Origin: Brockia lithotrophica
GTDB lineage: Bacteria; Bacillota; Bacilli; Thermicanales; DSM-22653
Length of the DNA: 64,000 nucleotides
Direction of reading: 5' to 3'
Assembly: GCA_003050565.1 (NCBI GenBank)
Contig: PEBW01000001.1
Location: forward strand, 248,001 to 312,000
The position numbers were made by a program, and so were the translations under genes. Shown here in pieces: positions 38,803 to 40,374 of this stretch. Position 1 is the first letter of the stretch, and every line of letters starts with the position of its first letter. The notes beneath the pieces were generated by a model. It was not told where the DNA came from, made no database searches, and saw only the letters and a program-made list of their open reading frames with translations.

Positions 38803-40374
38803 CTAGCGGAGCGTCGTCCGCGCGCGCGCCTTGACGGCCGCTCCGATAAAGGCGAGGAAGAGGGGATGGGGACGCGTGGGCCGGGAAGCGAACTCTGGGT
38901 AGAACTGAACGGCGACGAACCACGGGTGTCCCTCGAAACGGAAACCCAAGAGGTACTCGCGCCCTTCGCTCCACGCCTCGGGAAGACCTCCCCGGCGTCC
39001 GAGTTCTTCGGCCCAGTGAAACGGTACCCCCTCTCGGTGCCGCATGCGCTCTTCTATGCGTTCTTTCCCGTAGATTTCCGAAAGCATCCCCCGAGGGGCG
39101 AGTTCCACGGGCCGCGCGCCCACCCAGCCGTATCCCGGAAGGGAGGCGCTCATAGGCAAGACTCCCTCTCCGGCGGGGCGCTCGGAACCCCAAACGCCCA
39201 AAACCTCGCGCAAGGCCACGGGAAAGCCGTATCCCAAGGCGAGAAAGGGAATCCCCGCGCGGCGCGCGTAGCGAGAGGCAAGCGCCTTGCCGTCCTCTTC
39301 ACGGTCGTCCCACGTCCCCGGAAGGACGAGGGCGTCGAGTCTCCCGAGACGCGCGTCCGGGGAGACGCGTTTGAGCTCCCGAGCGTCGACCCAGTCGATT
39401 TCCAGCGCGACGCCGTGGGCAATGGCCGCATGGCGCAAGGCCTCCACCAGGCTTAGGTAGGCGTCGTGGAGGGCGACAAACTCCCCTACGATCCCCACGC
39501 GGACCGCGCCCGAAAGGCGCGCCACGCGGTCCACGACCTCTTCCCACGCGGAAAGGTCCGCCGGCGGGAGGGAGAGGCCGAAACGCTCGACTACGATGCG
39601 GTCCAAACCTTCCGTCCGGAGGCGAAGGGGAACTTCGTACGGCGTGGCGACGTCCAGGTTTTCGATCACCGCCTCCGTCTCGATGTCGCTGAAGAGGGCG
39701 ATCTTTTCCCGCACGTCCCGGGGAAGCGGCTGCTCCGTACGGCAGACGATGGCGTTGGGCTGAATCCCGATGCTCCGGAGTTCCTTCACGCTGTGCTGCG
39801 TGGGCTTCGTCTTGAGCTCCCCCGCGGCCTTGAGGTAGGGGACGAGCGTGACGTGCACGTAGAAGACGCGGTTGCGTCCGACGTCGTGTCGAACTTGCCG
39901 GATGGCTTCGAGAAAGGGGAGAGACTCGATGTCTCCCACCGTACCCCCGATCTCCACGATGAGGACATCGGCCTCAGATTGCTTGGCCAAACCGTACACG
40001 TGGTCCTTGATCGCATTCGTGACGTGCGGGATCACCTGGACGGTGGCGCCCCCGTACACGCCCCGGCGCTCGTTGTCGATGACCTCTTGGTAAATGCGGC
40101 CTGCCGTGACGCTCGAACGGCGCGTGAGGGCCACGTCGATGAAGCGCTCGTAGTGACCGAGATCGAGGTCCGTCTCGCCCCCGTCCACGGTCACGAACAC
40201 TTCGCCGTGCTGGTAGGGGCTCATCGTGCTCGGATCGACGTTGATGTACGGATCGAACTTCATGATCGCCACGCGGAGCCCGCGTGCCTTGAGGAGAAGC
40301 CCGAGCGAAGCCGCCGTAATTCCCTTGCCCAGCGAGGACGCCACGCCTCCTGTGACAAAGACATAGCGCGTCAT
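38803..40374 (-). CDS. pyrG: CTP synthase with intact synthase domain but degenerate glutaminase domain
   Basis: Converts UTP to CTP with ATP. It has 523 residues, slightly short. The synthase half (1-270) is fully conserved: [49 protein letters not shown]. In the C-terminal glutamine amidotransferase half the nucleophile motif GICLGMQ reads ALGYGFP, with Gly381 where Cys should be. The oxyanion motif PGGFG reads PGTWD. The catalytic His of QFHPEF is Tyr492, while the Glu (Glu494) remains. The fold-defining ends ([20 protein letters not shown]) are preserved, so this is loss of activity rather than truncation. The enzyme should therefore use free ammonia only. ATG at 40374 has GAAGGGG upstream. 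Confidence 0.95.

Follow-up and report, generated by a model that had tools for sequence, protein, structure and literature searches.

Is a CTP synthase whose glutaminase domain has lost its catalytic residues a peculiarity of one enzyme, or does it reflect a change in the way a whole lineage of bacteria handles nitrogen? The question is raised by pyrG in the window, i.e. the stretch of 64,000 nucleotides analysed from the genome of Brockia lithotrophica (hereafter called G000), a metagenome bin of 1,689,796 bp (1.69 Mb) in 12 contigs with 64.3 % GC and 97 % completeness. Glutamine is usually treated as the indispensable nitrogen carrier of cells. The explanation which best fits the observations, and to which a probability of about 0.83 was assigned, is that PyrG would use UTP, ATP and free ammonia only and that its glutaminase domain would be a constrained relic, as part of a family-wide abandonment of glutamine as cytoplasmic nitrogen donor. 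Five genomes of the family were compared (G000 to G004), including a second genome of the same genus (G001), and a genome of the same order (G005) was used in the PyrG tree. B. lithotrophica AL31 has been described as a chemolithoautotroph from a burning coal seam (PMC5928048); the word glutamine does not occur in the main text of either PMC5928048 or PMC10215811.

The gene and its parts are located in the window as follows, with Cys379, His515 and Glu517 in the numbering of the reference E. coli CTP synthase (1s1m):
38803..40374, minus strand: pyrG, CTP synthase with a glutaminase domain predicted to be dead, 523 amino acids, stop codon included (open frame, translation, TIGR00337 and NF003792 above cut-off)
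39574..40374, minus strand: synthase domain, residues 1-267, conserved (PF06418 at residues 3-267, 414 bits; dN/dS 0.013)
38845..39471, minus strand: class I glutamine amidotransferase (GATase) domain, residues 302-510, constrained and predicted to be catalytically dead (PF00117, 46 bits; dN/dS 0.054 for residues 290-515; fold match of the model)
39307..39321, minus strand: PGTWD instead of PGGFG in the oxyanion strand (aligned with 1s1m and 24 relatives)
39232..39234, minus strand: Gly381 codon GGA replacing the nucleophile Cys379 (alignment and codon check)
38899..38901, minus strand: Tyr492 codon TAC in place of the catalytic His515 (alignment and codon check)
38893..38895, minus strand: Glu494 codon GAG, the retained third triad residue Glu517 (alignment and codon check)

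The frame starts with ATG and is uninterrupted. A first-pass annotation of the window had described the synthase domain of PyrG as fully conserved and the nucleophile Cys, the catalytic His and the PGGFG motif as replaced, and both descriptions held: PF06418 was covered end to end (positions 1-265 of 265) and the domain was conserved in the alignment, in which GICLGMQ of the E. coli enzyme corresponded to ALGYGFP, QFHPEF to QFYPEF and PGGFG to PGTWD. Only Glu is thus left of the Cys-His-Glu triad, and the loop behind the nucleophile elbow is approximately 20 residues shorter. The GATase domain is nevertheless still detected by Pfam above the cut-off, and a model built from the alignment (pLDDT 87) matched E. 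coli CTP synthase over its full length with a TM score of 0.94, so that PyrG, as modelled, appears to be a folded protein whose glutaminase site is dead. With the glutamine-hydrolysing CTP synthases (TIGR00337) it shares domain order, synthase domain and fold, whereas its catalytic Cys and His and the oxyanion Gly are replaced, and glutamine hydrolysis would not be expected from such a sequence.

The substitutions were not caused by sequencing error, as had also been argued at first, since the ortholog in the congener G001 (L082), 96 % identical to the PyrG of G000, carries identical residues and dN/dS is low. The ratios listed above, calculated between G000 and G001, are within or below the range found for eight neighbouring genes (0.017-0.119), and together with the open frame they rule out that pyrG is a pseudogene. 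The genome was searched for a second, intact pyrG, which had been named as grounds for giving up the idea of a selected loss, and none was found in G000.

The loss of the nucleophile is not confined to the genus. Cys is replaced by Gly in the alignment of all five native PyrGs of the family; those of G002, G003 and G004 read GIGLGMQ and retain the His, and the genus of G000 has gone beyond these with the additional replacements of His by Tyr and of PGG by PGT. In a tree computed from the synthase domain, all five native PyrGs formed a single clade (support 100/97), adjoining on weak support (80/77) the PyrG of G005, which is intact. Relatives in which Cys and His are both present, which had likewise been named as grounds against a selected loss, were found within the family only as second copies, L086 and L087, which paired with each other (100/100) outside the native clade and are the acquired copies discussed below. 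In a collection of genome contigs, both residues were retained in 79 of 80 PyrG relatives, the 80th (L002) being a family member without the Cys. The simplest history is a single loss of the Cys in the ancestor of the family, followed by decay. Selected loss of glutaminase activity, with CTP made from ammonia only, was the first-pass prediction; it is supported and fits everything tested, the chemistry itself being deduced from sequence.

Parallel losses were observed in the other amidotransferases of G000. Absences in this 97 % complete bin refer to genome-wide searches, for which two concatenated protein queries served in the multi-gene searches, and to reading of contiguous operon stretches; the glutaminases covered were those of the class I and class II types, apart from cobyric acid-type GATases. 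PF00117 matched only PyrG and a PuuD-like hydrolase, the Cys of which is intact. In the native GuaA (C1:210692-212002), the synthetase and C-terminal domains are retained, and the GATase part is reduced to approximately 130 residues without the GICYGMQ and QFHPE segments and without a Pfam GATase match; the GuaA of G004 shows an intermediate state of this erosion. PF13522 matched two AsnB-like proteins, one beginning with MSGLWG instead of MCGI and the other without the Cys1 motif. A gene for a Cys1-less AsnB-like protein is located two genes from that of glutamate dehydrogenase (C6:1506-6616, L199). The native PurF has lost Cys1 and retained its phosphoribosyltransferase half, in G000 as well as in G002.

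Glutaminases which are separate subunits were not detected in G000. In its pur operon, purL and purF come after purC, and neither a purQ nor a purS ORF was recognised. The stretches read around his, arg and pdxS-serS contained no hisH, carA or pdxT ORF, serS coming immediately after pdxS. PdxT relatives do adjoin pdxS in G002 (L194:4667-5302) and G004 (L193:4400-5068), with Cys replaced by Gly and His by Ser. Searches of G000 with protein queries gave no match for CarA, HisH, TrpG/PabA, PurQ, PdxT, GatD or GltB (GOGAT); a stretch 30 % identical to the CarA query was rejected, as it belongs to the PuuD-like protein. Each biosynthetic glutaminase among the class I and class II types covered was either undetected in G000 or without its catalytic Cys. 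Partner enzymes able to take ammonia were retained, namely CarB, HisF, PurL, PdxS and a small NadE, and a TrpE/PabB-like protein was present as well. The NadE frame comprises 334 codons and is too short for the nitrilase-fused type. Native GlmS was found in none of the family genomes with the protein query. Native SIS matches of the GlmS type were lacking in G000, G002 and G004, though these are expected to be walled bacteria; weak GlmS-like matches in G002 and G004 were set aside, as they look like MurQ-type SIS proteins.

Glutamine synthetase was not detected either: neither PF00120 nor a GlnA query matched in G000, and none was found in G002 and G004, i.e. three of the five family genomes showed no such enzyme. 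It was found in all 14 control genomes, and 10 of the 399 genomes of the class that were searched were without it. Members of the class in which PF00120 gave no match include G172, G256, G265 and G283 (one genus), G045, G343 and G397. Glutamate dehydrogenase was present in G000 (region C6:5159-6616), found with an archaeal bait sequence and confirmed by Pfam (PF00208, 1e-81). A GatA amidase with its catalytic motifs, which has a fold different from those of the class I and II glutaminases, was also present, and together with the PuuD-like hydrolase it indicates that not every glutamine-handling fold is dead in G000. Two GatA-type amidases are encoded in G003, on contigs C1 and C60 (L200 and L206), one of which was perhaps acquired. 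The loss in the other amidotransferases and of glutamine synthetase makes the lack of any glutamine to use the likely cause of the state of PyrG, rather than an adaptation specific to this enzyme.

Where ammonia is plentiful and glutamine absent, glutaminase sites would no longer serve a purpose; those domains which are required for folding or assembly would persist without catalysis, and separable subunits would vanish. Most amidotransferase synthase domains accept exogenous NH3. For CTP synthase, this is known (PMC9138612). The native synthase enzymes would accordingly run on free ammonia, glutamate would be provided by glutamate dehydrogenase and Gln-tRNA by GatCAB with asparagine or ammonia as donor; the glutamine needed for protein synthesis may be imported.

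The same absences might be expected of a glutamine auxotroph, i.e. a lineage which lost glutamine synthesis together with many other biosynthetic steps and takes up both glutamine and finished products. The loss of just glutamine synthetase is a typical feature of host-dependent bacteria, and glnA is likewise absent from the genome of Blochmannia vafer (PMC3017870). That bacterium is, however, an obligate intracellular symbiont without glutamate dehydrogenase, for which no dismantling of amidotransferases was reported (PMC3017870), whereas the relatives studied here are free-living and glutamate dehydrogenase is present; Brockia and Hydrogenibacillus have both been described as chemolithoautotrophs (PMC5928048). 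The synthase halves PyrG, GuaA, PurF, AsnB, PurL, CarB, HisF and PdxS are retained, as are the operons for pur, his and arg, and purifying selection acts on PyrG; a bacterium which imports glutamine should, moreover, have retained functional glutaminases. Auxotrophy was thus considered unlikely.

Two members of the family, G001 and G003, carry acquired clusters of glutamine-related genes (G001:C3 at approximately 220500-245073, C7 and C11; G003:C17 and C18; L112-L115 and L149-L153). The clusters contain hisF-hisH, a gene for an ANTAR-type regulator, glnA, a glutamine-type nadE (612 amino acids), purL, purQ, guaA, glmS, asnB and gltB; purA, murT-gatD, a fused trpEG, pyrG, pdxS-pdxT, carA-carB and purF; and pabB-pabA. 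The names were mostly assigned from translations and are backed by search matches. PyrG, GuaA, GlmS, AsnB, PurF, PurQ, CarA, HisH, TrpG, PabA, PdxT and GatD are all encoded there in intact form. The copies of G001 and G003 mostly have 84-94 % nucleotide identity; between the native PyrGs of the two genera, divergence is far greater (about 57 % amino acid identity). Native guaA and pdxS gave no match in G003, which is consistent with their replacement by the acquired copies. Genes similar to those for urease and a urea transporter adjoin the clusters of G003.

The clusters of G001 are located at the end of C3 and on C7 and C11; from their gene content, the latter two are probably part of the same insertion as that on C3. 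On C3, a contig of 245 kb, the cluster starts beside the native alr gene, where GC falls from 0.67 to 0.57, and the next native gene after alr, coding for a LolA-like protein, is found where contig C5 starts. In G000, alr and the LolA-like gene are uninterrupted neighbours on one contig (C1), and 384 bp surrounding this position match the two ends in G001. That the intact copies in G001 stem from contamination was rejected, since C3 runs from native alr into the cluster and the site in G000 is uninterrupted. For G003, the clustering of a single functional class and the identity of 84-94 %, rather than 100 %, argue against contamination. Taken together, it is probable, at somewhat lower confidence than the reading of PyrG itself, that a free-living family, in part described as autotrophic, dispensed with glutamine as metabolic nitrogen donor and that two of its members re-acquired it with clustered foreign genes, a switch between nitrogen modes by horizontal gene transfer. 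The acquired clusters would restore the use of glutamine, for example where ammonia is scarce.

The deviating composition of the acquired region at the junction could alternatively mean that all family members carry such clusters and that the bins dropped them, and the genomes without clusters do resemble published bins, while those with clusters may be isolates. This was judged quite improbable: contig C1 of G000 is continuous across the site of one junction of G001, its pur, his, arg and pdx stretches are contiguous and do not contain the missing genes, and the glutaminase sites of native PyrG, GuaA, PurF and AsnB are lost whatever the distribution of the clusters. Slightly less credible still is an adaptation of PyrG alone, in which the dead domain would serve regulation, filament formation or ammonia supplied by a partner, independently of anything else in the genome. 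The domain is constrained and folds like that of CTP synthase, and PyrGs with Ser in place of Cys occur elsewhere in the phylum, in one case in a genome which keeps other glutamine enzymes (G753); the parallel losses in GuaA, PurF, AsnB and PdxT, together with the missing glutamine synthetase, would, however, have to be coincidence. Activity of the glutaminase domain by a different catalytic apparatus is hardly conceivable, for although Glu494 is retained and the domain constrained, nucleophile, base and oxyanion residue are lost in the genus and the Cys in all native family copies, and GuaA is without whole segments of its glutaminase site.

The proposed ammonia-dependent PyrG within an ammonia-based metabolism has partial parallels. 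Carbamoyl phosphate synthetase I is comparable by its description in PMC4655335 and, for the fish case, PMC7657897, having lost the nucleophile, using free ammonia and keeping the dead domain; as described there it is one enzyme of urea-cycle animals, whereas here several bacterial enzymes are affected at once and glutamine synthetase is gone. The short native NadE and the acquired type of the clusters resemble the alternation of NH3- and glutamine-dependent NAD synthetases between lineages (PMC3376133), which is a variation of a single enzyme, in contrast to the coordinated whole-genome switch proposed here. No precedent for coordinated loss and clustered re-acquisition in a free-living bacterium was found in open-licence PMC texts. 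The single enzyme is thus comparable to carbamoyl phosphate synthetase I, and the coordinated loss of amidotransferases with their clustered re-acquisition appears new as a system.

If this reading is correct, cells well supplied with ammonia can do without glutamine. Strains lacking the clusters would then be expected to withstand methionine sulfoximine and glutamine analogues (e.g. DON) and to require abundant ammonium. The family would provide several classical amidotransferases in a naturally occurring form that uses ammonia only, for studies of ammonia tunnels and domain coupling; with the acquired clusters, an entire metabolic currency would, unusually, have been transferred as one package.

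Outside the family, Cys replaced by Ser was observed in the PyrGs of three other Firmicutes families, L217 (G533), L225 (G497) and L229 (G753), in a survey of Cys-less PyrGs confined to replacement codons other than the Ser codons TCN and other codons beginning with T. In L229, the His is also replaced, by Gln. From their sequences, the three are possible independent losses of glutaminase activity.
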